Origin: Chitinophagales bacterium
Lineage (GTDB): Bacteria; Bacteroidota; Bacteroidia; Chitinophagales; Saprospiraceae
Length of the DNA: 64,000 nt
NCBI GenBank assembly: GCA_013298955.1
Contig: JAAFJT010000001.1
Coordinates: 62,001 to 126,000, forward strand
Reading direction: 5' to 3'
The position numbers were made by a program, and so were the translations under genes. A model generated the notes under the pieces. It searched no databases and was not told the origin of the DNA. It saw nothing but the letters and a program-made list of their open reading frames with translations. Positions within the stretch are counted from its first letter, which is position 1; every line of letters begins with the position of its first letter. Below are positions 7,630 to 57,864 of the stretch, one piece after another.

Positions 7630-7773
7630 AATTGGAACGCGGATGACACCGATAGGGCGAATTTTCGCGGATTTTAATTTGAACAATATTTAATATTGTT
7701 TTTTAATTAAAAACGGATTTTAAATTTATTTAAATCAAAAATTCGCCCAATCCGTGTCATCCGCGTTCCAATT
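7630..7773. repeat. intergenic inverted repeat, 'GGAACGCGGATGAC' family, locus A
   Basis: AATTGGAACGCGGATGACACCGATAGGGCGAATTTT (7630-7665) vs reverse complement of 7738-7773 AATTGGAACGCGGATGACACGGATTGGGCGAATTTT. Confidence 0.95.
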
Positions 7774-7788
7774 CGTATCACCTTTAAT

Positions 7789-10233
7789 TTATTTTCTAAC
7801 GACTGCTCCTAATTGCGTTTCATATTGCCGCATCAAATTGGACATCATCTGTTCGATTTCTTTCTCTTGTAACGTTTTCTCTTTGTCTTCAAATATAAAA
7901 CTAACAGCATACGATTTCTTTCCCGCACCCAATTTAACAACGTCTTCAAACACATCAAACAAATTAATTTCTTTCATCGTTTGTTTGCATGTTTTTCGGG
8001 CAATTTGAGCCATGTCCGCAAAACGAACCGATTCATCCACCACTAATGCTAAATCGCGGCGCACCACAGGATATTTCGATGGTTCCTCAAATTTAATTTT
8101 AGTGTTTTTAATCGCTTTAAGCACCGTATCCCATTTAAAATCAGCAAAATACACCTCTTGTTTTACATCAAATAATCGTTTGCAGTTGAAAGGCACTTTT
8201 CCAAACTCTACCAACACGGCTTCTCCGCGATGATATTTCAACCCAAATGCCCATTGTTTGCCTTGTAAAGCGGTCTCTTGATAACCGCCGATGCCCAAAG
8301 AACCTAAAATTTGTTGGACAATTGCTTTTAAATTAAAAAAATCAGTTTTAAGATTGGTTTTGTCTAACCAATTTTCTGGGCGTTGTTGACCTGTTAACGT
8401 TAAACTGAGGTGGGCTGTTTCAATTTGCCCGCCGCCTGTTTTTTGTCGATAGGTTTTGCCAAATTCAAATAATCGTACATCCGTTTGTTGCCGATTTTGG
8501 TTATGCGTCACCGTTTCCAATGCTGAAAATAACATCGTCGGGCGCATTATATCTAAATCCACATTGCCTGTATTGTTGATAAAAACCAATTCTGTTTGGT
8601 TTAATAAAGTATTATCCGCATAATATTTGGATTTAGACAAGGATAACGCCATCATTTCATTAAAACCTTGTGCCGCTAACGCATCCGCAACGCGTTGTTG
8701 CACCCGATACGGGTCTGGATTTTCGGTTGCCGCAGGAGTCATTTTCATACCCGCAGGTATTGGCACATGATTGAAACCATAAACGCGTAAAATCTCCTCT
8801 ATCACATCCGCTTCTCGCAAAACATCCGCTTTATTGGTCGGAACGCTGACTAAATAACTGTCCTCATTTTCCTCTAAAAGATTCATTTCCAAGGATTTAA
8901 ATATTTTCTTTAAATCTTTTTTATGAATTTTTAAACCAATTAAACTTTCTATTTTGTCAAAATGAACCCTAATTTGTTGAGGCGCAATCGGTGTCGGATA
9001 AATATCGACGATTTCGGACGCAATCACCCCGCCCGCTAATTCGGTTATCAATAAAGCGGCGCGTTTCAACGCAAAAACAGTGATATTCGGGTCACTTCCT
9101 TTTTCATATATTTTTTTAGCATCGGTGTGCAAACCCAATCGCGTGCCTGTGCGCCGCAACATTTTGGGGTGAAAATGCGCCGATTCTAAAAAAATGTTTT
9201 TAGTTTCAGCCTTCACGCCCGATTTGCTGCCGCCAAATACGCCCGCAATACACATTCCATTGCTTTCGCCGTCGCAAATCATCAAGTCTTCATTCGTTAA
9301 TTTGCGGTCAAGACCATCCAATGTTTGGAAAACACTGCCTTCAGGCAAGGTTTTGACCACAATTGAACGCCCTTTGATAGCTTCCAAATCAAATGCATGC
9401 AACGGTTGACCCAATTCGTGCAAGACAAAATTGGTCGCATCCACAATATTATTGATGCTGCGCACGCCGATTTTAGTTAAAAATTGTTTCAACCAATCAG
9501 GCGATTCGCCCACCGTCACGCCCGCAATACTCACGCCTGAATAACGCGGACAACCTGCGGCATGTTCCACCCGAACAGGCAACGTAAGTGATTGATTATC
9601 AACCTTAAACGCAGCAACATCGGGTAATTTAACGCCTTTTTTATACTGATGATGCACTGCCAATCGCGCCGCCAAATCTTTCGCAACGCCCAAATGACAG
9701 GTCGCATCCGAGCGATTCGGAGTTAAACCAATTTCAAAAACCGTATCTTGGTCGATTTTAAACACTTCAATCGCAGGTTTTCCAATCGGCGTATGTTCGT
9801 CTAAAACGATAATGCCGTTGTGATCCGTGCCAATGCCAAGCTCATCCTCCGCGCAAATCATCCCTTCTGAAACGTGACCGCGAATTTTACCACTTTTTAT
9901 TTTGACCGTATCGCCATTGGAGAAATAAAGTGTTGTGCCAATCGTTGCGACAGCTACTTTTTGTCCTGCACGAACATTCGGCGCACCGCACACGATTTGC
10001 AATACTTTCGATGCACCAATATCCACTTTGGTCAACGATAATTTATCCGCATCCGGATGTTTGGCACATTCCACCACTTTGCCAACCACAACGCCTTGCA
10101 AATTCCCTTTGATACCGCCGACGGTTTCGACCCCTTCCACTTCCAAGCCCAAATCGGTTAAAAGTTCAGCAATGGTTTCTGGGGACTCGTCAATATCGAT
10201 ATACGATTTTAACTGATTATAAGAAATTTTCAT
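7789..10233 (-). CDS. pheT: phenylalanine--tRNA ligase subunit beta
   Basis: MKISYNQLKSYIDIDESPETIAELLTDLGLEVEGVE..., tRNA-binding domain, B3/B4 and FDX-ACB C-terminus; 814 aa. Confidence 0.97.
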   Translation of the reverse strand: MKISYNQLKSYIDIDESPETIAELLTDLGLEVEGVETVGGIKGNLQGVVVGKVVECAKHPDADKLSLTKVDIGASKVLQIVCGAPNVRAGQKVAVATIGTTLYFSNGDTVKIKSGKIRGHVSEGMICAEDELGIGTDHNGIIVLDEHTPIGKPAIEVFKIDQDTVFEIGLTPNRSDATCHLGVAKDLAARLAVHHQYKKGVKLPDVAAFKVDNQSLTLPVRVEHAAGCPRYSGVSIAGVTVGESPDWLKQFLTKIGVRSINNIVDATNFVLHELGQPLHAFDLEAIKGRSIVVKTLPEGSVFQTLDGLDRKLTNEDLMICDGESNGMCIAGVFGGSKSGVKAETKNIFLESAHFHPKMLRRTGTRLGLHTDAKKIYEKGSDPNITVFALKRAALLITELAGGVIASEIVDIYPTPIAPQQIRVHFDKIESLIGLKIHKKDLKKIFKSLEMNLLEENEDSYLVSVPTNKADVLREADVIEEILRVYGFNHVPIPAGMKMTPAATENPDPYRVQQRVADALAAQGFNEMMALSLSKSKYYADNTLLNQTELVFINNTGNVDLDIMRPTMLFSALETVTHNQNRQQTDVRLFEFGKTYRQKTGGGQIETAHLSLTLTGQQRPENWLDKTNLKTDFFNLKAIVQQILGSLGIGGYQETALQGKQWAFGLKYHRGEAVLVEFGKVPFNCKRLFDVKQEVYFADFKWDTVLKAIKNTKIKFEEPSKYPVVRRDLALVVDESVRFADMAQIARKTCKQTMKEINLFDVFEDVVKLGAGKKSYAVSFIFEDKEKTLQEKEIEQMMSNLMRQYETQLGAVVRK

Positions 10234-10322
10234 AATTTTAAAATGAGCAAAATGCCTTCAAAGCGCAAATATAGCGTTTAACCACAAAATCGGCACTTTT
10301 TTTTTGAAAATTTGAAATTCAA

Positions 10323-10829
10323 TCAAATTTTTGCAAAAAAAGTCATTGGAACTTCGGTTTCAAAAGTCTTGGGTGGACTATCTCGAAGCGTTAATATCAG
10401 GCGAATCGTGAATTTACCCGTCATCAAGTAGGGTTTTACATCCACATTATTGGGGATTAAATCCAATTTTTCGCCTGTATTGAATGGAATTTGGTCTCGA
10501 AAAAAAATAATTTGTTCACTCAAAGTGGCGGTTGAAATACGCACTTCCACTTTTTCAAGGAATCCATAATTGGCTGCTACGAATAAACCGCGAATCGTCA
10601 TGTTTTTGGGTTCGATAGCCGTAATTTGAGTTGCTGTTACATTATTTGCCTTGAAAAGCACCGCCGTATCGGTGGCAATATCTTTAAATTCAAAATTATG
10701 CAACGCAAACGGATTTAAGCCAATCGGCAAATCAAGCGTGCGTCGATAAGGCATGTCAAAACCGGGTACCGATTTGCTACACGCACCGAAAAGACAGCAA
10801 ACCCAAAACAACAAGAAGCTATTTCTCAT
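10323..10829 (-). CDS. hypothetical lipoprotein
   Basis: MRNSFLLFWVCCLFGACSKSVPGF: lipobox LFGAC; start moved to the lipoprotein signal. Confidence 0.65.
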   Translation of the reverse strand: MRNSFLLFWVCCLFGACSKSVPGFDMPYRRTLDLPIGLNPFALHNFEFKDIATDTAVLFKANNVTATQITAIEPKNMTIRGLFVAANYGFLEKVEVRISTATLSEQIIFFRDQIPFNTGEKLDLIPNNVDVKPYLMTGKFTIRLILTLRDSPPKTFETEVPMTFFAKI

Positions 10830-11016
10830 AAATATGATTTTTTTTAGAATCAGGAATGAAGGAAGGCTTATCATTTGCACACAAAGAAGCGCAAACGATA
10901 AGCCTTGACGGATAAAGTTCGTAAGATAATGGCTACATAAACGTTTAATGTTGGAATTTCGATTTGAATTTGATTTTTCTTTGCTAACACGACCTTTTCC
11001 AAATCGTCGTTTGTGT

Positions 11017-11307
11017 TTAATGCGGCGCAGTGCGAATTTTATCCTTTATGGATTGAATCAGCGCGGTAGAGGCTTTGCGCCTGTGAACGCCATTGCGAAT
11101 TAAGCTCCTAAAAGATTCTTCTTGCTTTAATGCTGTTTGAAGCGCGGGATTCTGCTGCGCCTCCTGTAAAAAAAGAGATGCATCCTCTTTCGAGAGGGCG
11201 CGGTCGAGAAACATACTGGCGCGACTTTCAGGACTTTTCGCCGTATCGCTCCCTGCTGCTATGAAAGGCACAGGTTGTTGTTTTGAATCTCTCATTGGAA
11301 TAAACAA
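11017..11307 (-). CDS. putative anti-sigma factor-like small protein lacking zinc ligands
   Basis: LDRALSKEDASLFLQEAQQNPALQTALKQEESFRSLIRNGVHRRKASTALIQSIKDKIR: layout of small anti-sigma proteins but no Cys; next to an ECF sigma gene. Confidence 0.5.
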   Translation of the reverse strand: MFIPMRDSKQQPVPFIAAGSDTAKSPESRASMFLDRALSKEDASLFLQEAQQNPALQTALKQEESFRSLIRNGVHRRKASTALIQSIKDKIRTAPH

Positions 11308-11407
11308 TTTTGTACTTTTTCGTTTGTAAAGCTATTTTTTAAAACAAAAAAGTGAGTTAATGATGGATTGAATATTAGAAAATCAGGCTTTTGATATAAG
11401 ATTCAGG

Positions 11408-11494
11408 GTTTGAATTAGGATTTTTAGGATGGAGTGGATTTTTTAAGATTTTAGCCTAAAAAATCCACTCCATCCTAAAAATCCTAATTCAAAC
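11408..11494. repeat. intergenic inverted repeat, 'GTTTGAATTAGGAT' family
   Basis: GTTTGAATTAGGATTTTTAGGATGGAGTGGATTTTTTA (11408-11445) and its perfect 38-nt reverse complement at 11457-11494; 11-nt loop. Confidence 0.97.
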
Positions 11495-11501
11495 GTCCCG
11501 A

Positions 11502-12149
11502 TTATTGCGCCCGTTTATCTTCATAACCGAACGATTCTGCATATGCTTTTAATTTTTCCTTCATCAAGTTGCGCGCTCGGAATAATCTTGAACGCACCGT
11601 CCCAATCGGAATATCTAAAATTTTAGCAATTTCTTCATATGTGAAATCTTCTACATCTGCTAATAAGATAACGGTGCGAAACTCTTCCGCCAAATCATCT
11701 AATGCCCTTGTCACCTCATCGCCAAGCGAATTAGCAAACAACTCCGTGTTCAAATCGTTGTGACTTGTCAGGGGAAAGGCATCTGCGGGACTATCCGCTT
11801 CTAAAATACGAACCAATCTTGTTTTCATATCAACAAGGCTCGTTGACGGCGAAGCGTCTTCATCGTCCTGTGATTCTATGATTTCGTCATAATTGACCGT
11901 ACTCGGTTGCTTGACGCGGCGGCGGTAATCATTGATGAAACCATTCTTCAATATCTTAAACAGCCAAGCCTTCGCATTAGTTCCCGTTTCATATCTTTCT
12001 ATCGACCGATATGCTTTCAATAAGGTATCTTGCACCAAATCTTCTGCATCTGTTTCGTCGTAAGTCAAGTGATAGGCAAACGTTTTTAACGCGTCCGCAA
12101 ATGGCATCAGTTCTTTTTCAAAAACGACATCCCAATTCTTTTTTTTCAT
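11502..12149 (-). CDS. ECF-type RNA polymerase sigma factor
   Basis: Sigma70 r2 (DAEDLVQDTLLKAYRSIERYETGTNAKAWLFKILKNGFINDYRRR) and r4 (EEIAKILDIPIGTVRSRLFRARNLMKEKL). Confidence 0.93.
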   Translation of the reverse strand: MKKKNWDVVFEKELMPFADALKTFAYHLTYDETDAEDLVQDTLLKAYRSIERYETGTNAKAWLFKILKNGFINDYRRRVKQPSTVNYDEIIESQDDEDASPSTSLVDMKTRLVRILEADSPADAFPLTSHNDLNTELFANSLGDEVTRALDDLAEEFRTVILLADVEDFTYEEIAKILDIPIGTVRSRLFRARNLMKEKLKAYAESFGYEDKRAQ

Positions 12150-12429
12150 TCAAACAATGATTCAGATAGCGGCAATGATTTATGACAGCTTACAAAGGTA
12201 GCAATATTTATTGCATATATCCCCCAAAAAAATGAACTTTTTTTAAGTTAAAAGATTTGTAAACGCCTTTTGGGTAAAAAGGTGTCCAATTGCCATGATT
12301 TTATTGGTGTAATTATTTTGTTTGTATTCTAAAATGTTGATTTTGGTTGAAATTTTCTTTTCAAGCTACTTCCATTTGGACGTTTTTTTATTCAAAAGTA
12401 ATGATTTTATAGTCATGCGATAATTTAAA

Positions 12430-12492
12430 ATACCATTAGAACACCGATGACGCAGATACAGTGGATTTGCGTCATCGGTGTTCTAATGGTAT
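12430..12492. repeat. intergenic inverted repeat, 'GGAACGCGGATGAC' family, locus B
   Basis: ATACCATTAGAACACCGATGACGCA (12430-12454) with perfect reverse complement at 12468-12492. Confidence 0.96.
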
Positions 12493-12556
12493 CCCAAAAC
12501 CACTTAGTACAAAGTACATACAAATTTTATTAAAAACACATTGCGAAAGTGGCTCT

Positions 12557-13012
12557 TTAAACCGTCAATAGTTTTTTCACGGCGGCAGAAATCACAGCCC
12601 CTTCTGCTTTTCCAGCCAATTTTTTATTCGCCGCGCCGATGACTTTGCCCATATCTTTTGGAGAAGTCGCCCCGACTTCTGCAATTAAATCTTTCAAAAA
12701 GGCTTCCAACTCATTGGCAGACAATGCTTTAGGCAAATAATGTTCCAAAACCGCAATTTCTGCTTTTTCAATAATTGCCAAATCAGCGCGATTTTGCTTT
12801 TCATAAATGCCCAGACTATCTTTTCGTTTTTTGACCATTTTCTGCACCATCCCGATAGCTTTATCCTCCGTCAATTCCGTACCACGTGTTTTTTCATCGG
12901 TGTTGTACAACAAAATTTCGGCTTTAATGGCGCGAACCGTGCGAAGAGCCACTTCATTTTTGGCTTTCATCGCCTCTTTCAAGTCATGATTGATTTTTTC
13001 TGGAAAAGTCAT
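12557..13012 (-). CDS. GatB/YqeY domain-containing protein
   Basis: INHDLKEAMKAKNEVALRTVRAIKAEILLYNTDEK...LTEDKAIGMVQKMVKKRKDSLGIYEKQNRADLAIIEKAEIAVLEHYLPK...GATSPKDMGKVIGAANKKLAGKAEGAVIS. Confidence 0.93.
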   Translation of the reverse strand: MTFPEKINHDLKEAMKAKNEVALRTVRAIKAEILLYNTDEKTRGTELTEDKAIGMVQKMVKKRKDSLGIYEKQNRADLAIIEKAEIAVLEHYLPKALSANELEAFLKDLIAEVGATSPKDMGKVIGAANKKLAGKAEGAVISAAVKKLLTV

Positions 13013-13014
13013 GA

Positions 13015-13660: not shown

Positions 13661-13835
13661 TAATTAATCCAAGTTGCGCGGTAATGCCGCCTACGGCGGC
13701 AAAAAGTTTTTTTAAGGGCGTGTGTGTTTTGTTTTTAAAATTTTGCGAAGTAAAATTTTAAAAACAAAACACACACGCCCTTATCTCCCTCTTTTTGGGC
13801 GGCGAAGCCGCCTACCGCGCAACTTAGGTTAATTA
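13661..13835. repeat. four-way-junction palindromic repeat element, copy A
   Basis: Outer stem AAGTTGCGCGGTA/TACCGCGCAACTT; side hairpins GCCGCC-TAC-GGCGGC and GGCGGC-GAA-GCCGCC; central 31-bp perfect hairpin at 13714-13782; ~97% identical to 32452-32606. Confidence 0.95.
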
Positions 13836-15807: not shown

Positions 15808-15814
15808 GGTGATT

Positions 15815-17152: not shown

Positions 17153-17220
17153 CTTGGGATTTATTGGATTCTTTGATTTTTTTTAGCAAAAAAAAATTCA
17201 AAGAATCCAATAAATTCAAG
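17153..17220. repeat. intergenic inverted repeat, 'GATTTATTGGATTCTTTG' family
   Basis: CTTGGGATTTATTGGATTCTTTGATTTTTTTT vs AAAAAAAATTCAAAGAATCCAATAAATTCAAG. Confidence 0.93.
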
Positions 17221-23021: not shown

Positions 23022-23153
23022 CGTAAGATTTTAATTTTATTTTTAAAAAATTTGATGCCGCAAAGATACCTTTTTTATCAAAAAAAAGTCTTGCAAAGTT
23101 GTTTCTTACTTTACAAGACAAGCTATGGTAATAAACGCTAAAAAACAGCCATC

Positions 23154-23298
23154 AATTTCCGCTTTGGAAATTTTTGAAATAGGATGCTGATGATTGGAAG
23201 GATAAAAAGGATCTTTTGAGTTCAAATTTGCGCTCTTCATCCTTAAAATCCTTGAAATCATCAGCATCCTATTTCAAGAATTTCCCAAAGCGGAAATT
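23154..23298. repeat. long imperfect intergenic inverted repeat
   Basis: AATTTCCGCTTTGG(G)AAATT(C/T)TTGAAATAGGATGCTGATGATT... in both arms, ~60 nt each. Confidence 0.9.
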
Positions 23299-23310
23299 GC
23301 TGCATATAGC

Positions 23311-26300
23311 CTATTCTTTTACAATCTTTTGTATAACAATCAGTTCCACATTATTTTTTATTTGAATAAAATAAATACCTGTTGTAAGATTTCCCGTCGG
23401 CAATTCCAAACGATTCTCTCCTACATTCACCGTATGCAAGGTTGTTAAAACATTTCTGCCTGTCACGTCTAAAACGGAAACGGTTGCTTCAAACGCTTTT
23501 GGGCTTTCAATGCCTACCGTTACATCGTTGAAAGTCGGGTTTGGAAACGTTTTGACGTTGAAAATAGCTCCGTTGACGTTCACAACACTCGTTCCGATAT
23601 TACAAACCGTTGCAATTTTGCCCAATTGACCGCGTACTTCGCCGCCAGGATTCATCGCCGTATGCACATTGAAATACGTGCCGCCCGTCACAATCGTATT
23701 TACATCCGCCATCATCAAATTGTTAATGTACCCAAAAAACGCATTGCTAACCATGGTCAACGGATACAAAACACCGCCTGCAACGCCTGTTGCTCCTTTA
23801 TGTACGTGTGCAGAACTCGCATTGCCCGTCAATTTGTCCACCACGAACATCGCATGAGCATTATCTTTATTGCGATTAATGGACATCATCCCCAATCCGT
23901 AACTCGGCGCAACCACCGCAGGAGCTTCTTGCGCTCCACACATGGACGTAATCAAACCTTCGCGCACCGTCGGATAAATTTGACCCCGAATTTCACCATT
24001 TGGATTCGCCGCCGTGTGGATGTTGAAATACCAACCACTTTTCAACGCCGTGTTAATATCCGCAACGGTGAAACCCGTAGCCGTACCTGTGTAGTAATTT
24101 TGAATCGTCGGAGAAGTCGCCAAAGTGGTCACGACTCCGCCTGCCATACCGCGTGTACCTGTGTGAATGTGGGCTGCTGTCGGAGTTAATCCCGTGTATA
24201 AAACGTTGTAACTCAATGTATCCAAAGTAGAATTGATGCTGACCAATCCTAAACCTTTTGCATTTGTCGTCACAAAAGGTGTTCCTTGCGCACCTTCTAA
24301 AAACGCATCGTGTTGAATCCCACGTTGTGGCATCAATTGCGCCCGAATTTCACCATTTGGATTTGCTGCCGTATGCACATTCACATAAACTTTGCCACTT
24401 GTCAAACTATCAAGAAACATTTGATTCACATCCAATGAACCCATTAAAACATTTCCATTCGCCGTCAACGTGTAGGCAACACCGCCCGCAACGCCCGCAC
24501 CGCCAAAATGTAGATGCGCCGATGCAATATCGCCACTTAAACCATTTACCACGATTTTGTAATCCAATTTCGCCTGACTGTACGAAAGTGTAAACGCGCC
24601 CAAACCTGCTGCCGTCGTACTGACCGCAGGCACTTGATTTGCACCCGACAACAATGCCATATAATTATTGTCTTTTTCCAACCGCAATTGAGCGCGAATT
24701 TCGCCATTTGGGTTAGCGGCAGTATGCACGTTCAAATACAAACCGTTGTCAATCGCTGCGGCTAATTGCGCTTTGGTGAAGGTCAAGGTCGTTTGAATCC
24801 GATTGCCGCGCACAAAACTCGACAAATCTATCAAAACACCCCCTGTTTGACCCGCCGCGCCGCTATGAATGTGGCAACCCGTGACCGCACCACTCAAACT
24901 GTCAAAAACCGCATTGACATTGACCGTCATATAATCTTCTTGTACCATGAAGGTTGCCAAACCTTTTGCAGGAGTCATCACCATCGGTACTTGATTCATG
25001 CCATTCAAACGACTCGCAAATAATAATTTCGCATCCGAATTCGGCATTTCAGTCGTTTCGCTACATTGATTTGCGGATTTTCCGAGTTGACCGCGTACTT
25101 CGCCGTTTGCATTCGCTGCCGTGTGTACATTATAATAGGTGTTGCCCATCATAATTGTCATCGCATTCGCGGGAGTCATTCCCGTGTATCCGAAAAACGC
25201 ATTGCCTGTCATCGCCGACAAATCGTATAAAACGCCGCCTGTCGCACCCGCCGCACCTGTATGTAAATGCGCTGAACTCGCATTGCCCGACAAACCGTTG
25301 TTGACAAACATGATATGAGCATTATCTTGCATGCGATTGATGGACATCATGCCCAAACCAATGGCACGACTATTCAAACTTGGGACTTGTTGAGAACCGC
25401 AAAGCGATGTAACAAAAGATTCTCGTACCGTAGAAAGCACTTGACCGCGAATTTCACCATTTGGATTCGCCGTAGAATGGATATTGAAATAAAAACCATC
25501 TTGTAAAGCGGCTTTCACCATGATAGCCGTCACGCCAGGCGCGAGTCCTGTGTAAAGATTCGTAACCGAAGGAGAAGGCGTTAAGGCAAAGACAACTCCG
25601 CCATTCATGCCCATCACGCCTTGATGCAAATGCGCACTTGTCGGCGTAACGCCCGTGTACAAAACCGCATAACTCATCGTGTCCAACGTCGAATAAATAC
25701 TGGCAATTGCTAAACCTATTGCATTCGTCGAAACGGCAGGTACTTCTTGCGCGCCTTCCAAAAACGCATTGTGTTGAATGCCTTGTTGAACGGATAATTG
25801 ACCGCGAATTTCACCGTTAGGATTGGCAGCCGTATGAATATTGACATAAATTGCGCCGATTTTCAAACTGTCCAAAAACGCGGAATTGACTGATAATGAA
25901 CCACTTAACACATTACCCGATGCCGTCAAAGCGTAAGCAACGCCACCTGCAACGCCCGCCGCGCCAAAATGCAAATGTGCCGAAGCGATTGCACCACTTA
26001 ACCCGTTGACGACGATTTTATAATCTAATTTGGTTTGGTCGTAAGACAATGTAAACGCGCCCAAACCTGCTGCTGTCGTATTGACCGCAGGCACTTGATT
26101 CGCGCCAGAAAGCATTGCCATATAATTATTGTCTTTTTCCAACCGCAATTGAGCGCGAATTTCACCATTTGGGTTGGCAGCAGTATGGACGTTCAAGTAT
26201 AAACCGCCGTCAATTGCCATTGCTAATTGCGCTTTGGTGAACGTAATTTGGGTTTGAAGGCGATTGCCCACCACATTTGAACTCAAATTAATCGCAACAC

Positions 26301-26559
26301 CACCATTTTGACCCGCCGCACCCGTGTGAATGTGGCAACCCGTGACCGCGCCACTCAAACTGTCAAAAACGGCATTGACTTGAACCGTCATGTAATCTTC
26401 CTGCACCAAAAAAGTGGCTAAACCTTTTGCCGTCGTGCTGACCGCAGGCACTTCATTGCTGCCGTACATTCGAGCGCAGAATAATAATTTGCCATCGGTG
26501 TTAAATCCAAAACTTTGGATGGATAATAAGCAACATAGGAGTAAATAATAATTCTTCAT
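23311..26559 (-). CDS. secreted protein with eight CHRD domains and a T9SS type A C-terminal sorting domain
   Basis: Repeated 'GANQVPAVSTTAAGLGAF...SAHLHFGAAGVAGGV...VNVHTAANPNGEIRGQL'; C-term TFPNPTFNDVTVGIES...GIYFIQIKNNVELIVIQKIVKE; start moved to signal peptide MKNYYLLLCCLLS. Confidence 0.93.
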   Translation of the reverse strand: MKNYYLLLCCLLSIQSFGFNTDGKLLFCARMYGSNEVPAVSTTAKGLATFLVQEDYMTVQVNAVFDSLSGAVTGCHIHTGAAGQNGGVAINLSSNVVGNRLQTQITFTKAQLAMAIDGGLYLNVHTAANPNGEIRAQLRLEKDNNYMAMLSGANQVPAVNTTAAGLGAFTLSYDQTKLDYKIVVNGLSGAIASAHLHFGAAGVAGGVAYALTASGNVLSGSLSVNSAFLDSLKIGAIYVNIHTAANPNGEIRGQLSVQQGIQHNAFLEGAQEVPAVSTNAIGLAIASIYSTLDTMSYAVLYTGVTPTSAHLHQGVMGMNGGVVFALTPSPSVTNLYTGLAPGVTAIMVKAALQDGFYFNIHSTANPNGEIRGQVLSTVRESFVTSLCGSQQVPSLNSRAIGLGMMSINRMQDNAHIMFVNNGLSGNASSAHLHTGAAGATGGVLYDLSAMTGNAFFGYTGMTPANAMTIMMGNTYYNVHTAANANGEVRGQLGKSANQCSETTEMPNSDAKLLFASRLNGMNQVPMVMTPAKGLATFMVQEDYMTVNVNAVFDSLSGAVTGCHIHSGAAGQTGGVLIDLSSFVRGNRIQTTLTFTKAQLAAAIDNGLYLNVHTAANPNGEIRAQLRLEKDNNYMALLSGANQVPAVSTTAAGLGAFTLSYSQAKLDYKIVVNGLSGDIASAHLHFGGAGVAGGVAYTLTANGNVLMGSLDVNQMFLDSLTSGKVYVNVHTAANPNGEIRAQLMPQRGIQHDAFLEGAQGTPFVTTNAKGLGLVSINSTLDTLSYNVLYTGLTPTAAHIHTGTRGMAGGVVTTLATSPTIQNYYTGTATGFTVADINTALKSGWYFNIHTAANPNGEIRGQIYPTVREGLITSMCGAQEAPAVVAPSYGLGMMSINRNKDNAHAMFVVDKLTGNASSAHVHKGATGVAGGVLYPLTMVSNAFFGYINNLMMADVNTIVTGGTYFNVHTAMNPGGEVRGQLGKIATVCNIGTSVVNVNGAIFNVKTFPNPTFNDVTVGIESPKAFEATVSVLDVTGRNVLTTLHTVNVGENRLELPTGNLTTGIYFIQIKNNVELIVIQKIVKE

Positions 26560-26885
26560 TCTTGCTTGTTTAATAAAAGGATTAAAAAAGAGGTTTAAAA
26601 AAGCCTTGTAAATCAACATACGTTTAAAATTTGCAAAGTGGATTTCAGTAATTGATTTTTTTTTGAAATTATAATTTCCACTTATTTTTGTAAGTATTTT
26701 TAAAAATGAACGTTGCTAATAAGCAACTCACGAGTAAATTCAAATGGATCATGCTTTATCTTTTAAAAATTATAAAAGGAGGTTTAAAAAGTCTTGTATT
26801 TGGACATACGTGGAGGATCGGGAAAGTGGATTTATTAAAATGTTTTTTTTGATATAAATAATCTCAGTACATGACAAAAAAAAAT

Positions 26886-32031: not shown

Positions 32032-32063
32032 AAGTTTCGGAAACCTTGAAGGTTTCCGAAACT
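32032..32063. terminator. hairpin, 'GTTTCGGAAACCTT' family
   Basis: AAGTTTCGGAACCTT-g-AAGGTTTCCGAAACTT. Confidence 0.75.
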
Positions 32064-32076
32064 TGCGCTTTTTACA

Positions 32077-32363
32077 GAAGGTCGGCGAGGTTGCAACCCT
32101 ATTCATTGCCCACAGAATGATTATTGGTATTCAAATAATTCTACAAAATAAAAAGGTGCGTAGCACCGCAACATTTGTAGAAAAACAATGGATAAACCGT
32201 TTCGGAGGTGCGTAGCACCGTAACATTTGTAAAAATGGTGCGATTGTTACGGTGCGACGCACCTCCAACGCGGGTTCCAATTCCATTTTTCTACAAATGT
32301 TGCGGTGCTACGCACCTTTTTTGATTCTGTGGGTAATGGATAGGGTTGCAACCTCGCCGACCT
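32077..32363. repeat. three-level nested inverted repeat
   Basis: Outer AAGGTCGGCGAGGTTGCAACCCTAT[T/C]CATT[G/A]CCCACAGAAT 41 nt; middle AAAAAGGTGCGTAGCACCGCAACATTTGTAGAAAAA; inner GGAGGTGCGTAGCACCGTAACA/TGTTACGGTGCGACGCACCTCC. Confidence 0.95.
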
Positions 32364-32451
32364 TGATTCGATGCGAATGAACTGATTATCAATTATTTGC
32401 GTTTTAATCGTTTATTTCAAATCAACTACTTAGGTTGAGTATATTTAACCC

Positions 32452-32606
32452 AAGTAGCGCGGTAATGCCGCCTACGGCGGCAAAAAGTTTTTTTAAGGGC
32501 GTGTGTGTTTTGTTTTTAAGATTTTGCGAAGCAAAATTTTAAAAACAAAACACACACGCCCTTATCTCCTTCTTTTTGGGCGGCGAAGCCGCCTACCGCG
32601 CACTTA
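32452..32606. repeat. four-way-junction palindromic repeat element, copy B
   Basis: Same architecture as 13661-13835; central hairpin 32495-32563. Confidence 0.95.
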
Positions 32607-37578: not shown

Positions 37579-37690
37579 CGATACAATTGGAACACGGATG
37601 ACGCAGATTGGGCGGATTTTCGCGAATTTTTTATTAAAAAAATCCGCGAAAATCCGCCCAATCTGCGTCATCCGCGTTCCAATTGTATCG
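37579..37690. repeat. intergenic inverted repeat, 'GGAACGCGGATGAC' family, locus C
   Basis: CGATACAATTGGAACACGGATGACGCAGATTGGGCGGATTTTCGCGAATTTTTT (37579-37632) vs near-perfect reverse complement at 37636-37690. Confidence 0.97.
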
Positions 37691-39964: not shown

Positions 39965-40073
39965 ACAAATAGATTTGCGCCACAAATTTCGTAAATTTTT
40001 CAAATTTACGAAATTTGTGGTGCAAATTTCGTAAATTTTTCAAATTTACGAAATTTTAGGTGCATATTTTGGG
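39965..40073. repeat. tandem hairpin repeat, 'ATTTCGTAAATTT' family, locus 1
   Basis: CACAAATAGATTTGCGCCACAAATTTCGTAAATTT-ttc-AAATTTACGAAATTTGTGG... twice. Confidence 0.93.
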
Positions 40074-42016: not shown

Positions 42017-42107
42017 GGTTTGAATTAGGATTTTTGGGATTTTTAAGATTCAATTAGGATTTATCCTAATTGAATCTTAAAAAATCCCAAAAATCCTAAT
42101 TCAGACC
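42017..42107. repeat. intergenic inverted repeat, 'GTTTGAATTAGGAT' family
   Basis: GGTTTGAATTAGGATTTTTGGGATTTTTAAGATTCAATTAGGAT-tt-reverse complement with 1 mismatch and 1 indel. Confidence 0.96.
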
Positions 42108-44551: not shown

Positions 44552-44585
44552 AAAGGTCGGCGAGGTTGCAACCTCGCCGACCTTT
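44552..44585. terminator. 34-nt perfect palindrome, 'GGTCGGCGAGGTTGCAACC' family
   Basis: AAAGGTCGGCGAGGTTGCAACCTCGCCGACCTTT, followed by a half-copy at 44597-44620. Confidence 0.9.
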
Positions 44586-44807
44586 TAGATAGAATCAAGG
44601 TTGCAACCTCGCCGACCTTTTGGATCGCTTCTTTCAATTGAACTGCTTATATACTTCGGGAGTTTCAAAACCTAAGCAAAATCAAAAAAAATCCGTGCAA
44701 ATCAGCCCAATCCGCGTCATCCGTGTTTCCATTGTATCCCAAAACCACCCGACGCAAAGTATAAATAGGTATATCTTAATTCCTAATTAAAACAAAATTT
44801 CAATATA

Positions 44808-48567: not shown

Positions 48568-48746
48568 TTTTTGAATTAGGATTGATAGGAATCGGTTTCG
48601 GAAACCTTCAAGGTTTCCGAAACCGATTCTCTCTAAACCGAAATTATAGTTGCCTCCAAAAAAGGCTTGCGCAACATGAGTTATTAAGATGATTAGGATT
48701 TTAAATCCTAATCATCTTAATAATCCTATAAATCGTAATTCAAAAA
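48568..48746. repeat. nested inverted repeat: outer 'TTTTTGAATTAGGAT' arms enclosing two further palindromes
   Basis: Outer TTTTTGAATTAGGATTGATAGGA / TCCTATAAATCGTAATTCAAAAA; inner AATCGGTTTCGGAAACCTT-c-AAGGTTTCCGAAACCGATT (48590-48628) and TTATTAAGATGATTAGGATTT-t-AAATCCTAATCATCTTAATAA (48681-48723). Confidence 0.93.
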
Positions 48747-49745
48747 TCACACTTTTAAAATCAATTTTCCAGTCTTATCTCCTTGATACAGAATCAATAA
48801 CGATTCAGGAAATGTTTCAATACCTTCTACGATATGGAACGATTCTTTCAAGCGTCCTTCCTTCATCCAGCCACTCATTTCGGCAATGGCTTCGCCATAA
48901 CGCGCTGCATGGTCGAATACGACAAAACCTTCCATCCGTCCCCGCGCCGACAATAATGCCAAATAATTAGATGGTCCTTTGATGCGGTCTGTATTATTAT
49001 ATTGAGAAATCGCCCCGCAAATCACAATCCGTGCGTGCATCCGAATCATTGCTAAACAAATATCCAAGGTTTCGCCACCCACATTATCAAAATAAACATC
49101 AATGCCATCAGGACAGGCTTTGCGCAATTGTGCTTTCAAATCTCCATTTTTGTAATCTATAGCGGCATCAAAACCAAGATTTTGTACCAAATGAGCGCAT
49201 TTATCCGCACCACCTGCAATGCCCACTACGCGACAACCTTTGATTTTGGCAATCTGCCCAACAATGCTTCCGACCGCACCCGCCGCACCCGAAACCACCA
49301 CCGTTTCACCAGCTTTAGGTTGACCGACTTCTAAAAGGGCAAAATACGCTGTCATGCCCACCATGCCAAGCGTTCCTAAATACGTTGTCAATGGAGCTAA
49401 TTTGGTATTTACTTTGGTCAAACCTTTCCCGCCGACCGCGTGAAAATATTGTTGAACCCCAAAACCGCCCGTCACTTTATCGCCAATTTTATATTTATCG
49501 TTTTGAGAATCAACGACTTCGCCTACACCGCCTGCCCGCATCACTTCCCCAATATCCACAGGGCGAATATAAGATTTGCCCAGACTCATCCATCCGCGCA
49601 TCGCAGGGTCGAGTGAAATATATTCGATTTTAACCAACACATCTCCTGCGGCTAAGGGCGTAGTTTCGGGCGTAGCGATGTCCCAATCGCTGCGTTTCGG
49701 CATCCCTTGCGGGCGTGCTGCTAATTTGATTTGTAAATTTTTCAT
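48747..49745 (-). CDS. NADP-dependent medium-chain oxidoreductase (MDR / leukotriene B4 dehydrogenase-like)
   Basis: LVKIEYISLDPAMRGWMSLGKSYIRPVDIGEVMRAGGVGEVV...GETVVVSGAAGAVGSIVGQIAKIKGCRVVGIAGG. Confidence 0.94.
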   Translation of the reverse strand: MKNLQIKLAARPQGMPKRSDWDIATPETTPLAAGDVLVKIEYISLDPAMRGWMSLGKSYIRPVDIGEVMRAGGVGEVVDSQNDKYKIGDKVTGGFGVQQYFHAVGGKGLTKVNTKLAPLTTYLGTLGMVGMTAYFALLEVGQPKAGETVVVSGAAGAVGSIVGQIAKIKGCRVVGIAGGADKCAHLVQNLGFDAAIDYKNGDLKAQLRKACPDGIDVYFDNVGGETLDICLAMIRMHARIVICGAISQYNNTDRIKGPSNYLALLSARGRMEGFVVFDHAARYGEAIAEMSGWMKEGRLKESFHIVEGIETFPESLLILYQGDKTGKLILKV

Positions 49746-50518: not shown

Positions 50519-50567
50519 ATATAAAACATATTCTTTTTTAAATTATTATTTAAAGAATCACCTAAAA

Positions 50568-50678
50568 TTTCGTAAATTTTTCAAATTTACGAAATTTGTG
50601 GCGCAAAATAGGATTTGCACCTAAAATTTCGTAAATTTGAAAAATTTACGAAATTTGTGGCGCAAATCTATTTGTGAG
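50568..50678. repeat. tandem hairpin repeat, 'ATTTCGTAAATTT' family, locus 2
   Basis: CACCTAAAATTTCGTAAATTT-ttc-AAATTTACGAAATTTGTGGCGCAAA, then GCACCTAAAATTTCGTAAATTT-gaa-AAATTTACGAAATTTGTGGCGCAAATCTATTTGTG. Confidence 0.93.
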
Positions 50679-52877: not shown

Positions 52878-52937
52878 AATATTGATTTTAAACAACTTAT
52901 AAAGTTGATTTAAAATTAATGCTTCATTCAAAATAAG

Positions 52938-53447
52938 GTGAGTAAAAAAAGATTTACAGGCGGTTTCGACAGTATTTTCGGCAGGGCGGAAGAAGAACCT
53001 GTCAAAATCATGTCTGACGACATCGCTCCCATAGCAGTAGAAGCCGCGCCGCTTGAACCTTCCGCATTCAACAAAAAAGCGACGACTAAAAACTTTACTT
53101 CGGATTTGGACGCGTTGTTCCGCGATGCAATGTCGGAAGCCGTCGAAGAACGAGTTACGAGAATCAAACGGTCTGTCGGCATTGAAGACGACCCGTTTGA
53201 GGAGAGTACGCGGCAATTTAAGAAACCGTTAAGCGGTTTGGACGCGTTGATTCGGCAAACAATGGAGACGAGTTTGGCGGGCATGGAACATGCTGCGGTC
53301 AAGCGGATTACCCTATTGTTTGAATCGGCTAAAATCGACAAGTTGAAAAATATTGCCAAGATGGAAAGAGCCTTTATGAAAGATTTAGTCCAAAGCGTAA
53401 TCAATGAGTTTATAACGGATTACGAAAAACGAAAAGGTGCTATATAA
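52938..53447 (+). CDS. small putative ParA partner, GTG start, 169 aa
   Basis: (M/V)SKKRFTGGFDSIFGRAEEE...FTSDLDALFRDAMSE...PLSGLDALIRQTMET...; directly downstream of parA. Confidence 0.75.
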   Translation: MSKKRFTGGFDSIFGRAEEEPVKIMSDDIAPIAVEAAPLEPSAFNKKATTKNFTSDLDALFRDAMSEAVEERVTRIKRSVGIEDDPFEESTRQFKKPLSGLDALIRQTMETSLAGMEHAAVKRITLLFESAKIDKLKNIAKMERAFMKDLVQSVINEFITDYEKRKGAI

Positions 53448-53449
53448 TT

Positions 53450-53532
53450 GGTTTTGAATGAGGATTTTGGGGATTTATTGGATTCATTTTATAAAATCAA
53501 TCCAATAAATCCCCAAAATCCTCATTCAAACC
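53450..53532. repeat. intergenic inverted repeat, 'GAATGAGGATTTTGGGGATTTATTGGATT' word
   Basis: GGTTTTGAATGAGGATTTTGGGGATTTATTGGATTCATTTTA immediately followed by its near-perfect reverse complement. Confidence 0.95.
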
Positions 53533-53591
53533 ACAAAAAATCCAGAAATGATTCAACCAAAACCAAACCATTTTTAATACACTAACATGCT

Positions 53592-54533
53592 ATGTCAGTA
53601 ATGCTCCCGTACCTGCCCGACGATTTGCGGCAGTATTATAATCATACAATTCACCCCGAATTGATGCGCATGGAGCGCAAACGGCATCAACTGTTGTTGT
53701 TACTTGCCGTCTCATTTTTGCTTATTTTAGGTATCATATTTTTACAACTTTATATTGGTATTTTTGTCATCACTTTAATATTGATGATACCTGTTGTGTT
53801 GTACATTACTTTTTTGTATTATGAATTGGAAAAATTCAAACATGTTTTCAAACCTAAAATTATTAATTTAGTGTTAGATTTCATAGATAATGATGTGAGT
53901 TACAGCACTTTGGAATATAAAGAAAATGCTTCGATTGCGCCCAAAGTTTTTTTTGAAAGCAAACTGTTTGCTGCACGCGGCGTTGATTATGTGGGTGAAG
54001 ATTATATCACAGGTAAAATCGGCGAATTAGAATTTGAGTTGAGCGAATTGATGGTCAAAAAAATGTCCCCTGTTTTGAATCGGTTGGACAATGTTTTTCG
54101 CGGCGTTTTCCTACATGCGAAATCGCCTATTTCGATTACGGGTCAAATGATTATTTTGCCACGCCATTTGAAGCAATATTATTTGGATGCCTTGAAAGAT
54201 TTTAACTTAAAATCCAATGCTCGACCGTATGAACTGATAAAAAATGTTCGTTTTCGAGAAAGTTTCATGGTGTACTGCACGCCTGACGCGAATGTAAAAC
54301 GATTTTTATCGGAAGATATGCAAAAATTATTGCTCAAATACCACGATACGACAGGAAAAGATATGCACGTTTCGTTCATTGATGCGAATATTTACATCGC
54401 CGTTGCGCAGCAAAAAGATATTTTAGAACCCGTTTTGTGGCAATCGAATGTGAGTTTTGATTTAATTCAAGAGTTTCACAGCGATTTGATTATGTTGATG
54501 AAGATTGTGCGCGATTTTGATGAATGCAATTGA
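53592..54533 (+). CDS. DUF3137-like membrane protein
   Basis: Two N-terminal TM segments (LLLLLAVSFLLILGIIFLQLYIGIFVITLILMIPVVLYITFLYYELEKFKHVFKPKII) then a soluble domain. Confidence 0.75.
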   Translation: MSVMLPYLPDDLRQYYNHTIHPELMRMERKRHQLLLLLAVSFLLILGIIFLQLYIGIFVITLILMIPVVLYITFLYYELEKFKHVFKPKIINLVLDFIDNDVSYSTLEYKENASIAPKVFFESKLFAARGVDYVGEDYITGKIGELEFELSELMVKKMSPVLNRLDNVFRGVFLHAKSPISITGQMIILPRHLKQYYLDALKDFNLKSNARPYELIKNVRFRESFMVYCTPDANVKRFLSEDMQKLLLKYHDTTGKDMHVSFIDANIYIAVAQQKDILEPVLWQSNVSFDLIQEFHSDLIMLMKIVRDFDECN

Positions 54534-54637
54534 TAGGCAGCTTCTATCCTTTTAGAATTGTTTTACAAATATCAAAAGAATCAAACTAATTATGTGATTC
54601 GCAACTTCTATAAAAATTACAATTAATTGATTATCAA

Positions 54638-54668
54638 ACCTTTGGAGGATTTGAAAACCTCCAAAGGT
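54638..54668. terminator. palindromic hairpin between convergent genes
   Basis: ACCTTTGGAGG...CCTCCAAAGGT. Confidence 0.7.
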
Positions 54669-54693
54669 CGTATTGTATGGTTATCTTGTATAG

Positions 54694-55587
54694 TCAGTTT
54701 ACTTGCAATATTTTTTTTAATAATCCATTCAAGACAGGCGAAATCAATTTATGAGTTGCGTCTAAAACATGTAATCGGGAAGCAGGCAGTTCAGATTCCA
54801 ACATTCGACCTGTAGCAATCGGTACAATTGGGTCTTTTTCACCGAAAAACAATTCAATTGGAATATTAATGCGTTGCAATTTATCCAAAACGCGCTGCAT
54901 CGGAATCACAAAATCATCCATCGAAAGCCAATATGAAAATAAACGCATCCGCCGTTCCACCCGTCCCAAATGTTTAAATGTAAAATCATATATAAATTCA
55001 TTAATCAACTTATATTTTCTGAAAAAAGTCAAAATGCGTAAAAACCAAAACGGTTTGTTTAAAATCCACCAGAGCGCGTACCGAATAGGGCGCGGAATCA
55101 TCGAAATTTCAAACATGCCTTTGGTGTTAAAACCGTCGGGCGCGAGTAAAAAAAGGCGGTCGAGGCGCGGTGCAAATTCCCAAACCATGCGTTGAAGGAT
55201 GCGCGCCCCAAAACTATAACCCATGAGCTCAAAACTATATTTATTTTCCATTTCCGCAATCGTCGAAATAATGCGTTTAATATCCCGTTTATTGAAAAAA
55301 GATTCGCGCCATTGTGTATGCCCGTGATGCGGCAAATCCACCGCATACACCGTGTAATGCGGTTCGAGCGACTCCTGTAAAGGCAAAAACAGGGTAGCGC
55401 GGTCGCCAAAACCATGAAAGGCTATCAATAACCGCTCTCCATGTCCAAATCGAAGGCAGCCAATACGAGAATTTTTGTAAGCAAAATAAATGCGTTCTGC
55501 ATTGCGCGAAGCCGATATTTTGGTTACAATTTCTTCTGCATTTTTGCAAATCGGATGTGCATTTTTTAAACGATATGATTCGGGCAT
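54694..55587 (-). CDS. alpha/beta hydrolase
   Basis: RLLIAFHGFGDRATLFLPLQESLEPHYTVYAVDLPHHGHTQW...FELMGYSFGARILQRMVWEFAPRLDRLFLLAPDGF...GEKDPIVPI. Confidence 0.92.
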   Translation of the reverse strand: MPESYRLKNAHPICKNAEEIVTKISASRNAERIYFAYKNSRIGCLRFGHGERLLIAFHGFGDRATLFLPLQESLEPHYTVYAVDLPHHGHTQWRESFFNKRDIKRIISTIAEMENKYSFELMGYSFGARILQRMVWEFAPRLDRLFLLAPDGFNTKGMFEISMIPRPIRYALWWILNKPFWFLRILTFFRKYKLINEFIYDFTFKHLGRVERRMRLFSYWLSMDDFVIPMQRVLDKLQRINIPIELFFGEKDPIVPIATGRMLESELPASRLHVLDATHKLISPVLNGLLKKILQVN

Positions 55588-55646
55588 AAATAATTATAGA
55601 TTATAACAAATTTACATTTAATTTAAATTTTTGTAAAAAAAACACC

Positions 55647-56417
55647 ATGAGATTTTCACAAAAGGTTTTTTTTTGGAGTTATATGATGCTCCTCATCACG
55701 AGTTGTAATGCCTGTTTTGCGGTCAAAACGCATCGTTCTGACTCGAAACCGATTCGCCACGACGTGTGGGAGGGTTTGTTAAAAAAACATGTTAGCGCGA
55801 CAGGTGTGGTCAATTACAAGGGGCTACTTGCCGATAGTTTGGCGTTTCAAGGGTATCTAAACCAACTTGCACAAGGCTACCCGAATGATAAAAATTGGAC
55901 AAAATCTGAACAAATGGCATATTGGATTAATACGTATAATGCTTACACTGTGCAACTTATTCTCAAAAATTATCCTGTGAAAAGTATTAAATCTATCAAA
56001 TCTGGGATTCCGTTTGTAAATGATGTATGGCAAATGGAACTGATTCCGATTGAAAATAAGTTATATCATCTTAATAATATTGAGCATGGCATTTTGCGCG
56101 CTCAATTTTCAGAGCCGCGTATTCATTTTGCGGTGAATTGTGCTTCTAAATCGTGTCCGAAATTGTTGAATGAGGCATACACGGCTGAAAAGTTGGAAAC
56201 ACAATTGACTCAACAAGCCCGAAGTTTCCTAAATGATGGTGTTCGCAATCAAATTTCAACACAAAAAGCAGCCTTATCTAAAATTTTTTCATGGTATCGG
56301 GGCGATTTCACCAAAAAACAACTGTTGTTTGAGTTTATAAATCAGTATTCGGATATCAAAATGTCGGAAAATACCAATATTAATTATCTGGATTATGATT
56401 GGAATCTCAATGAATAA
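55647..56417 (+). CDS. DUF547 domain-containing protein
   Basis: VWEGLLKKHVSATGVVNYKGLLAD...QMAYWINTYNAYTVQLILKNYPVKSIKSI...RIHFAVNCASKSCPKLLNEAYTAEKLETQL. Confidence 0.93.
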   Translation: MRFSQKVFFWSYMMLLITSCNACFAVKTHRSDSKPIRHDVWEGLLKKHVSATGVVNYKGLLADSLAFQGYLNQLAQGYPNDKNWTKSEQMAYWINTYNAYTVQLILKNYPVKSIKSIKSGIPFVNDVWQMELIPIENKLYHLNNIEHGILRAQFSEPRIHFAVNCASKSCPKLLNEAYTAEKLETQLTQQARSFLNDGVRNQISTQKAALSKIFSWYRGDFTKKQLLFEFINQYSDIKMSENTNINYLDYDWNLNE

Positions 56418-56418
56418 C

Positions 56419-56501
56419 GGTTTGAATTAGGATGTATTAGATTTTTCAAGATTCCTAAATCTTGAAAAATCCAATACATCCTAAAAATCCTAATTCAAAC
56501 C
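56419..56501. repeat. intergenic inverted repeat, 'GTTTGAATTAGGAT' family, left arm with 9-nt deletion
   Basis: GGTTTGAATTAGGA[-]TGTATTAGATTTTTCAAGATT vs reverse complement of right arm GGTTTGAATTAGGATTTTTAGGATGTATTGGATTTTTCAAGATT. Confidence 0.95.
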
Positions 56502-56502
56502 A

Positions 56503-57510
56503 TTATCGAATGCGTAAATACGCTTCTGCCAATGCTAATCCATTGATTTGAGCTTCTACATATTTGCATAAATCATCATAATCTCCTTGTGCATGTTTTA
56601 AAAACCCTGCTGCCTGTCCATAGACAGAGGGCATATTCAACTTTTTCATCAAGTAAAAACCATCCAAAAAATGACGAATCCCTCCTGATATAATGACTTG
56701 CTTACATCGCATTGCGTCACCCAATTCAAGTTGAATTTGATTCGTGAAACCAACCATTTCTTCCGCCGTATGTCCCAAATGGGCTAATTTTTCATATAAA
56801 TGTTGTTGCTCCGCATCACTTCTCAACAGCTCCACTTGTGCAAAATTCGTACCACCACTCGCCGCGAAATCAACTGCTGCCAAAGGCAATTGAAACAATC
56901 GCTTCAAACTATGATAACCAAAACCTTGCCCAACTTCTTTCACAATCACTTGACAATCAATCTTTTCTAAAATCGTTTCAATGGTTTCAATCGGCGATTT
57001 TTTAAACCTATCCCCTTCGGGTTGTAACCATTCTTGCATCGGATTGACGTGAATAATCAAACCATCAGCGCGCAACGTATCCATTAATTTTTGAATTTCA
57101 TGAATTTCATGATGCGCTATCATCCGTTCCAATTGCGCAATCCCAAGATTCGCAAACAACGGCAAATCATCGCCTATCAAATGCCGCACATCAAAATCAG
57201 ATAAATGTTCTTTATCATACAACAATTGCCGACACGAACCCAAACCCATCCCAAAACCAAAATCTCGTGCCGCCCTTGCTAAATTGCGATTAATCGTCCG
57301 CGCCTTCGCCGTGCCGCCCGTCATGCTGCTCACCCACATCGGAATTTTAAACGATTTGTTTAAAAAAACGAATGGTTTCAATGTATTGGCATCGGGATGC
57401 GCCGAAAAGAGTGGTTCGTAATAAAAACGCGGGTCTGTCGCACCGATTTGAGAGCGAAATGCCAAATCAATATGGTCTCGCTTGCGGCTGACGGCAGTTG
57501 AATCTTGCAT
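56503..57510 (-). CDS. fni: type 2 isopentenyl-diphosphate delta-isomerase
   Basis: SRKRDHIDLAFRSQIG...FKIPMWVSSMTGGTAKARTINRNLARAARDFGFGMGLGSCRQLL...VNPMQEWLQPEGDR...VIVKEVGQGFG...DFAASGGTNFAQVE. Confidence 0.96.
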   Translation of the reverse strand: MQDSTAVSRKRDHIDLAFRSQIGATDPRFYYEPLFSAHPDANTLKPFVFLNKSFKIPMWVSSMTGGTAKARTINRNLARAARDFGFGMGLGSCRQLLYDKEHLSDFDVRHLIGDDLPLFANLGIAQLERMIAHHEIHEIQKLMDTLRADGLIIHVNPMQEWLQPEGDRFKKSPIETIETILEKIDCQVIVKEVGQGFGYHSLKRLFQLPLAAVDFAASGGTNFAQVELLRSDAEQQHLYEKLAHLGHTAEEMVGFTNQIQLELGDAMRCKQVIISGGIRHFLDGFYLMKKLNMPSVYGQAAGFLKHAQGDYDDLCKYVEAQINGLALAEAYLRIR

Positions 57511-57623
57511 GATATTTGAATTTTTATAGATGTATATGGTTTGAACGAGTCTTTGTAATAAGAACTTTTTGAAAAATAAACAAATTTTATGCTCAAAAGT
57601 TGTGAAAGTACCTTCATTCGGAG

Positions 57624-57864
57624 GTGGATTTTATGGATTCTTTGGATTTTTATACTTTGCGTCGGGTGGTTTTGGATACGATTGGAACGCGGATGACGCG
57701 GATGGGGCGGATTCGCACGGATTTTTTTTGAAATTCAGTGCCAATTCAGGAAAAAATCCGTGAAAATTCGCCCCATCCGCGTTATCCGTGTTCCCATTGG
57801 ATCGCAAAAACACCCGACGCAAAGTATAAAAATCCAAAGAATCCAATAAATCCATAAAATCCAC
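57624..57864. repeat. 241-nt composite inverted repeat, 'GGAACGCGGATGAC' family, locus D
   Basis: GTGGATTTTATGGA[TTTATTGGA]TTCTTTGGATTTTTATACTTTGCGTCGGGTG... arms of ~105-115 nt; bracketed 9 nt missing from the left arm. Confidence 0.97.

Follow-up and report, generated by a model that had tools for sequence, protein, structure and literature searches.

Facing ladders of GGAT boxes and a candidate mobile palindrome in the intergenic gaps of a Chitinophagales genome

Introduction

Among the described bacterial repeats closest to those reported here are repetitive extragenic palindromic (REP) sequences, with their REPIN and bacterial interspersed mosaic element (BIME) forms and their REP-associated tyrosine transposases (RAYTs). 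These are likewise short, extragenic, without coding capacity and present in hundreds of copies, single and clustered, as inverted pairs (PMC3733652, PMC2817692, PMC3116915). REP stems measure 5-13 bp (PMC3733652). We analyzed a stretch of 64,000 nucleotides (hereafter the window), positions 62001-126000 of contig 1 in the draft genome of a Chitinophagales bacterium (GCA_013298955.1; 4.68 Mb, 204 contigs, 98% complete), in which many gaps between genes carry longer palindromes. A first-pass annotation of the window had proposed that these palindromes draw on one shared vocabulary of words, and that they may represent either a REP/BIME-like palindrome-propagating system or a terminator/insulator family.

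We found that the words do recur, yet divide into several families, the dominant ones being built from ladders of GGAT boxes. Propagation is supported for at least one family, here called YA, whose near-identical discrete copies have common ends, TA flanks and a tendency to nest inside other palindromes. Our preferred reading, to which we assign a probability of roughly 0.6, is that the shared vocabulary is made up of remnants, along with live copies, of several palindromic, non-coding mobile families resembling miniature inverted-repeat transposable elements (MITEs). Under this reading, the dominant superfamily would comprise two facing arms of GGAT boxes spaced 9-9-10 nt, with a T/A-rich end inside. 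Copies would disperse as whole units, as observed for YA and presumed for the other families, and would survive in gaps at gene 3' ends. Some would land at the dyad center of resident palindromes, yielding concentric combinations. Whole-palindrome inheritance together with arm-to-arm copying, possibly by template switching, would keep the arms complementary at the DNA level, and selection on RNA hairpins would not be what maintains this complementarity.

Results

Using a fixed hairpin finder, we counted 29 hairpins in the window, compared with 0, 0 and 0 in three shuffles. Genome-scale counts were taken from a 1.24-Mb sample of the same genome, which contained 463 hairpins (3.7 per 10 kb), compared with 1 in 400 kb of shuffled sequence. 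By extrapolation, the genome holds an estimated ~1,700 long palindromes. The word GGAACNCGGATGACNC matched 636 times genome-wide and its reversed control not at all. These counts confirm the observation made in the first-pass annotation.

Sequence reading and the inverted repeats confirmed all six groups of recurring words at the positions given in that annotation, and several copies proved to be parts of other structures. In the second group, the copy at 57660 forms the interior of a larger unit (57624-57858), the copy at 12430 is diverged, and that at 44690-44770 is a single arm rather than a palindrome. The copy of the fourth group at 32077 pairs with 32348-32363, so that it makes up the outermost layer of a nested palindrome of 300 nt, and the first-group copy at 48568 surrounds a hairpin of the fifth group. 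A search of the 64-kb window against Rfam, which had been suggested as a check, returned no family match at the gathering score.

Clustering resolved about a dozen families: the long families A, Z, E, B, F and L, the compact families C, D, I, J and K, and family G, which resembles GTAG-type REPs. Families A, Z and E (median arm lengths of 50, 34 and 45 nt, respectively) have a common layout in which a head (GGAAC or TTTGAAWTAGGAT) is followed by RGAT boxes. The arms of the dominant families are ladders of GGAT boxes at 9-9-10 nt, a grammar missed by the first-pass annotation. Neighboring boxes of family A lie 9 nt apart in 117 cases and 10 nt apart in 45. Long arms outside family A showed exact 9-nt RGAT spacing 68 times, against 0.5 expected from shuffles, and the lag-9 autocorrelation without family A gave z = 10.6 (z = 4.2 with one arm per cluster). 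Family B carries ACATAG boxes at 9-10 nt in place of GGAT. Facing polarity in family A is +- in 79 cases and -+ in 6. Spacers differ between loci and are mirrored inside each copy. Because boxes are conserved and spacers free, the ladder is probably the recognition site of a putative mobilizing or binding protein; no such protein was found.

Two further arrangements were observed among the long families. Family A units occur head to tail with 82- and 165-nt periods at L049 (the end of G000:C12) and at L048:4019-4522; these tandem runs, one of them at a contig end, reflect either local amplification or an assembly break. Family F forms near-identical dispersed units of ~155 bp with the ends AAGTTGCGCGGTA...TACCGCGCAACTT, found also at L035, L041, L046 and L248, and is a candidate for a second MITE-like family.

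Evidence for mobility comes from YA, a 174-bp element with TA on each side and about 60 copies. The window copy (57651-57828) is 99.4% identical over 178 bp to L242:8093-8270 and 97.8% identical to the copy at L218, all in unrelated gaps. Identity between copies ends at the same points, giving sharp common ends (TACTTTGCG...CGCAAAGTA), and these discrete ends are accompanied by terminal inverted repeats, as in MITEs. TA stands outside both ends in 23 of the 25 distinct copies; of the other two, one has a direct CA/CA and one is shifted. YA ends occur 122 times in this genome and are absent from 147 of 149 other genomes of its family. Given that differences between the arms are inherited by YA copies, YA moved as a whole unit.

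Four of the 25 copies, including the one in the window, lie at the exact dyad of another palindrome, compared with 0.1 expected for random intergenic TA sites (p = 3e-6). Insertion of YA at palindrome centers explains the Russian-doll modules. Nesting of other kinds is also common, and the combinations in all include Z>Y>A, Z>C, D>G and B>YA. These results suggest that the modular vocabulary arose by repeated insertion into palindrome centers, a process seen in YA that may extend to the other families.

Several points weigh against this interpretation. TA is self-complementary, so the inference of a 2-bp duplication for YA comes from the one CA/CA copy. No target duplication was definable for families A and Z, and the apparent signals for A, Z, E and B were due to self-complementary words. 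A profile search of the draft for Y1_Tnp (PF01797) gave no matches, with control genomes positive; no DDE_3 or DDE_Tnp_1 transposase was found in it, nor was any longer copy with YA ends and an internal gene seen. The nearest genome, at 65% identity in MetG, is too distant for orthologous gaps to be compared for empty sites. Lastly, the locus-specific interiors of family Z are unexplained by simple copying of one element. Multi-copy insertion sequences (IS) often drop out of short-read drafts, and the absence of a transposase is therefore weak evidence.

TA duplication is typical of IS630/Tc1-mariner types. Transposases of the IS630 and IS4/IS5 types were considered as movers and rejected, as they are absent from the draft. 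That a draft full of repeats has no Y1_Tnp, DDE_3 or DDE_Tnp_1 reflects either true absence or loss in assembly. The plasmid and phage vectors searched gave no match, and ten IMG/VR stretches held mostly single arms and were uninformative on vectors.

Hairpins are concentrated behind genes. Only 8 of the 463 lie inside open reading frames. Where a gene 3' end is followed by 40 nt or more of gap, a hairpin is present in 51% of cases. Density per kb is 3.2 in convergent gaps, 2.2 in tandem gaps and 1.1 in divergent gaps. In tandem gaps, 90 of 120 long-arm copies are closer to the upstream stop (59 expected), with 52 within 15 nt of it (24 expected); genes were called as simple ATG open frames, making start-side distances approximate. 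This placement fits insertion tolerance away from promoters, or a role at the 3' end.

The same placement would be expected if the hairpins were terminators or 3'-end protectors, standing after stops, symmetric for convergent genes and kept paired by selection on RNA. Canonical terminators showed no enrichment in the scanned region (23 found, 23.1 expected), and short arms contain 28 G-U and 14 A-C mismatches (p = 0.04), both of which favor that explanation. However, promoter avoidance predicts 3' placement too, and the long stems point elsewhere. Selection on an RNA stem should favor G·U. Mismatches in the stems, read on the strand transcribed from the upstream gene, number 125 G-U and 137 A-C overall, 101 and 123 in arms of at least 28 nt, and 40 and 63 in family A. 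Six or more of the 8 nt downstream are T in 2 of 86 long hairpins, and the mean of 2.58 T in these 8 nt compares with a background of 2.70, in agreement with the earlier remark that few have a U-tract. Lacking both a G·U excess and a T-run, the long hairpins are not ordinary terminators but DNA-level objects. The terminator/insulator proposal is thus unsupported for them, whereas some compact families may be terminators; as a general explanation we consider it unlikely.

In family Z, identity at variable columns is 0.78 within a copy and 0.40 between copies. Spacers that are locus-specific yet mirrored imply that arm-to-arm copying is needed. Template switching is described in two papers as a mechanism that homogenizes the arms of inverted repeats (PMC8604942, PMC7202029), and we infer that it acts on Z copies here.

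These observations on family Z, and that published mechanism, would also suit a process without mobility, in which palindromes grow and are perfected in place by replication template switching while words spread by ordinary recombination. In its favor, stem mismatches are strand-symmetric and rare variants appear in both arms 22 times (2.35 expected). SbcD is present, so that the palindromes cannot be put down simply to its loss, and loss of SbcCD was rejected as the reason for their survival. In-place growth does not, however, account for YA, whose ~60 discrete copies lie at unrelated sites, end at exact points flanked by TA and inherit differences between their arms; we regard it as rather improbable.

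The ladder extends beyond this genome. A search of a species collection with the pattern ACGGATN3ACGGATN3ACGGAT, for which we estimated ~7 chance matches, found at least 119 stretches, some of them coding repeats. Among 144 matches listed, 91 lie outside long open frames; 44 of these 91 have an inverted partner within 250 nt on the inner side and 1 on the outer side. Carriers with a partner, among the matches listed, belong to Bacteroidota, Acidobacteria, Desulfobacterales, Planctomycetota, Gemmatimonadetes, Nitrospirae, Chloroflexi and Cyanobacteria (Calothrix, Dulcicalothrix), and include a Lentisphaerae isolate and one Methanosarcinales metagenome-assembled genome (MAG) with the element ATAGAACACAGATGACACGGATTAGACGGATTTTCACGGAT...GTTCTAT. 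The ladder is thus found in at least nine bacterial phyla (its own and at least eight others) and one archaeal MAG, bearing in mind that MAG labels may be wrong. Comparing arm with arm in the pairs from other phyla, boxes are 96% and spacers 60% identical; spacers between loci are 39% identical.

Within the phylum of the window, a related pattern occurs in 52 of 297 genomes, with 206 matches here, at most ~15 in any other, and 3 in all for the reversed pattern. The nearest genome, of the same genus, has no GGAAC copy. This distribution bears on the idea that selection keeps the ladders as arrays to which a protein binds, in DNA or in RNA, in a nucleoid, replication or regulatory role. Conserved boxes, free spacers, near-helical spacing, fixed facing polarity and occurrence in many phyla all accord with it, but a housekeeping role would give a steadier distribution than the patchy one observed, and we give the idea little credence.

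Other periodic repeats were seen in related and distant genomes. A member of the same family, G019, carries single-armed, non-palindromic ladder copies. Its loci L065-L067 hold a composite repeat made of a CCTGCTGCGCAGG hairpin, a single-armed ladder and CAGCATGATGTTGACC, with related composites at L142 and L206. Inverted-pair ladders with the boxes CACGAAG, CACGGAG, CACGAAT and CACAGAG occur at L192, L095, L107 and L289 (Planctomycetota, Acidobacteria and others). Relatives carry further short-period inverted arrays in gaps, at L260:1406-1492, L261:1330-1493 and L263 (downstream of the AMP-binding gene), built from the 8-nt GTGTTGAT or from GAGAGGG and GGTTGGT words of ~7 nt; in L260, an inverted repeat with an 8-nt period stands in front of metG. 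This suggests that the group as a whole has periodic palindromes, with words that differ from genome to genome.

Mobilization of REP/BIME elements by a RAYT (Y1) transposase would account for the high copy number, extragenic location and inverted pairing found here. Y1 genes are present in 45 of 61 relatives, and family G resembles repeats around a Y1 gene of the same-genus genome. The ladder families differ from REPs in their arms of 28-66 nt, far longer than REP stems (PMC3733652), in their 9-nt ladder and in lacking a GTAG/CGTC tag; only family G bears TTTGTAGAAA. As the draft has no Y1 or RAYT gene, they are not classical REPs. Nor, among 28 Y1 loci examined in relatives, is any flanked by ladders. 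Several of these loci possess REP or terminal inverted repeat ends of their own; the one ladder encountered lies several hundred nt off, outside the terminal inverted repeats. We therefore rejected a RAYT association, which already fails for the ladder families, along with the REP/BIME-like label, and consider this explanation very improbable. Family G itself (GGTGCGTAGCACCG...TTTGTAGAAA, window 32150-32321), with a GTAG-type REP look and no RAYT in the draft, would be an orphan REP family.

The elements of the window are collected in Table 1. The nested palindrome of families D and G (32068-32372) has a predicted RNA minimum free energy (MFE) of -197 kcal/mol. Apart from the repeats, the window encodes a 1102-aa protein (23311-26619) that gives eight matches to the CHRD domain and carries a Por secretion tail, which marks the genome as one of Bacteroidota.

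Table 1. Palindromic elements located in the window
Positions	Strand	Type	Element
7630..7773	.	inverted repeat	family A palindrome, 36-nt arms, 72-nt loop
11407..11495	.		family Z palindrome, TTTGAATTAGGAT head, 38/38 complementary, just 3' of sigma-factor gene stop
12430..12492	.		diverged family A palindrome
13671..13825	.		family F unit AAGTTGCGCGGTA...TACCGCGCAACTT, enclosing 32-nt-arm hairpin 13713-13783
17153..17217	.		GGATT-ladder palindrome
23153..23299	.		composite, X ends (CAATTTCCGCTTTGGAAA) flanking family E ladder
32032..32064	.		family I compact hairpin (GTTTCGGAAACC)
32079..32363	.		nested palindrome, family D shell (GGTCGGCGAGGTTGCAACC) around family G units (GGTGCGTAGCACCG...TTTGTAGAAA)
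32453..32606	.		second family F unit
37579..37690	.		family A palindrome, upstream of metG, 54-nt arms, predicted RNA MFE -90 kcal/mol
39984..40056	.		family L palindrome (ATTTCGTAAATTT)
42017..42107	.		family Z palindrome
44552..44620	.		family D hairpin pair
44692..44761	-		solo decayed YA arm
48568..48747	.		family Z arms around family I hairpin (48589-48629) and GGATT hairpin (48681-48723)
50565..50656	.		family L palindrome, divergent gap
53451..53532	.		family Z palindrome, 39-nt arms, immediately 3' of stop codon
56419..56501	.		family Z palindrome occupying gap between two convergent stop codons
57624..57858	.		GGAT-ladder palindrome with YA element at dyad center
57653..57826	.		YA element TACTTTGCGTCGGG...CCCGACGCAAAGTA, TA each side

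Discussion

Long palindromes are usually unstable, and here they dominate gene 3' ends. A bolder reading, which we hold tentatively and think doubtful, is that facing 9-9-10 GGAT ladders form a single new repeat class that has reached nine or more bacterial phyla, and perhaps archaea too, that a putative structure-seeking mobilizing enzyme recognizes the ladder and targets palindrome tips, and that nested shells fill about half of gene ends in some genomes. If true, a tip-targeting enzyme would make palindromes grow as nested shells, and nesting at dyad centers makes such targeting directly testable. Our preferred reading, of several MITE-like families, offers YA, a concrete unit of recent mobility, as a starting point in the search for an enzyme. 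The ladder provides a simple, testable signature of cross-phylum repeats that is in neither Rfam nor the open-access papers searched. Comparing G·U with A·C mismatches tells DNA-level palindromes from RNA-level ones, and the comparison could be extended to other intergenic repeats.

The arm strings occur in no open-access paper, subscription papers and preprints being outside the search, and one match to related strings was unrelated. Integron attC sites, considered for their anatomy, were rejected, given that the ends of families A and Z have no RYYYAAC...GTTRRRY cores and the neighboring genes are housekeeping and mixed-strand, not a cassette array. DNA-uptake-sequence terminators (PMC2267715) likewise have short words that recur downstream of genes in inverted pairs, but these are single short words rather than multi-box ladders. 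The intergenic heptamer TAACTGA (PMC4679880) also repeats at a fixed period in gaps and is patchy over phyla including Bacteroidetes and Cyanobacteria; unlike the ladder, it forms direct repeats near start codons with a 7-nt period and almost no inverted pairing. The terminal inverted repeats of TIRYT/TIRtron elements (PMC3733652) are long and form moderately abundant families, as here, but they flank a Y1 gene, whereas none of the 28 Y1 loci inspected here has flanking ladders.

Bacterial MITEs (RUP, NEMIS, Nezha and others; PMC3733652) resemble YA, a 174-bp unit that has long terminal inverted repeats and exact ends flanked by TA, and whose dispersed copies are near-identical. YA differs in being wholly palindromic with ladder arms, in being inserted at the dyad of other palindromes, in having arms that also occur solitary, and in that no parent transposon was found. 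YA fits a MITE except for a known transposase, and REP/BIME elements are similar as dispersed inverted pairs but differ in their defining features.

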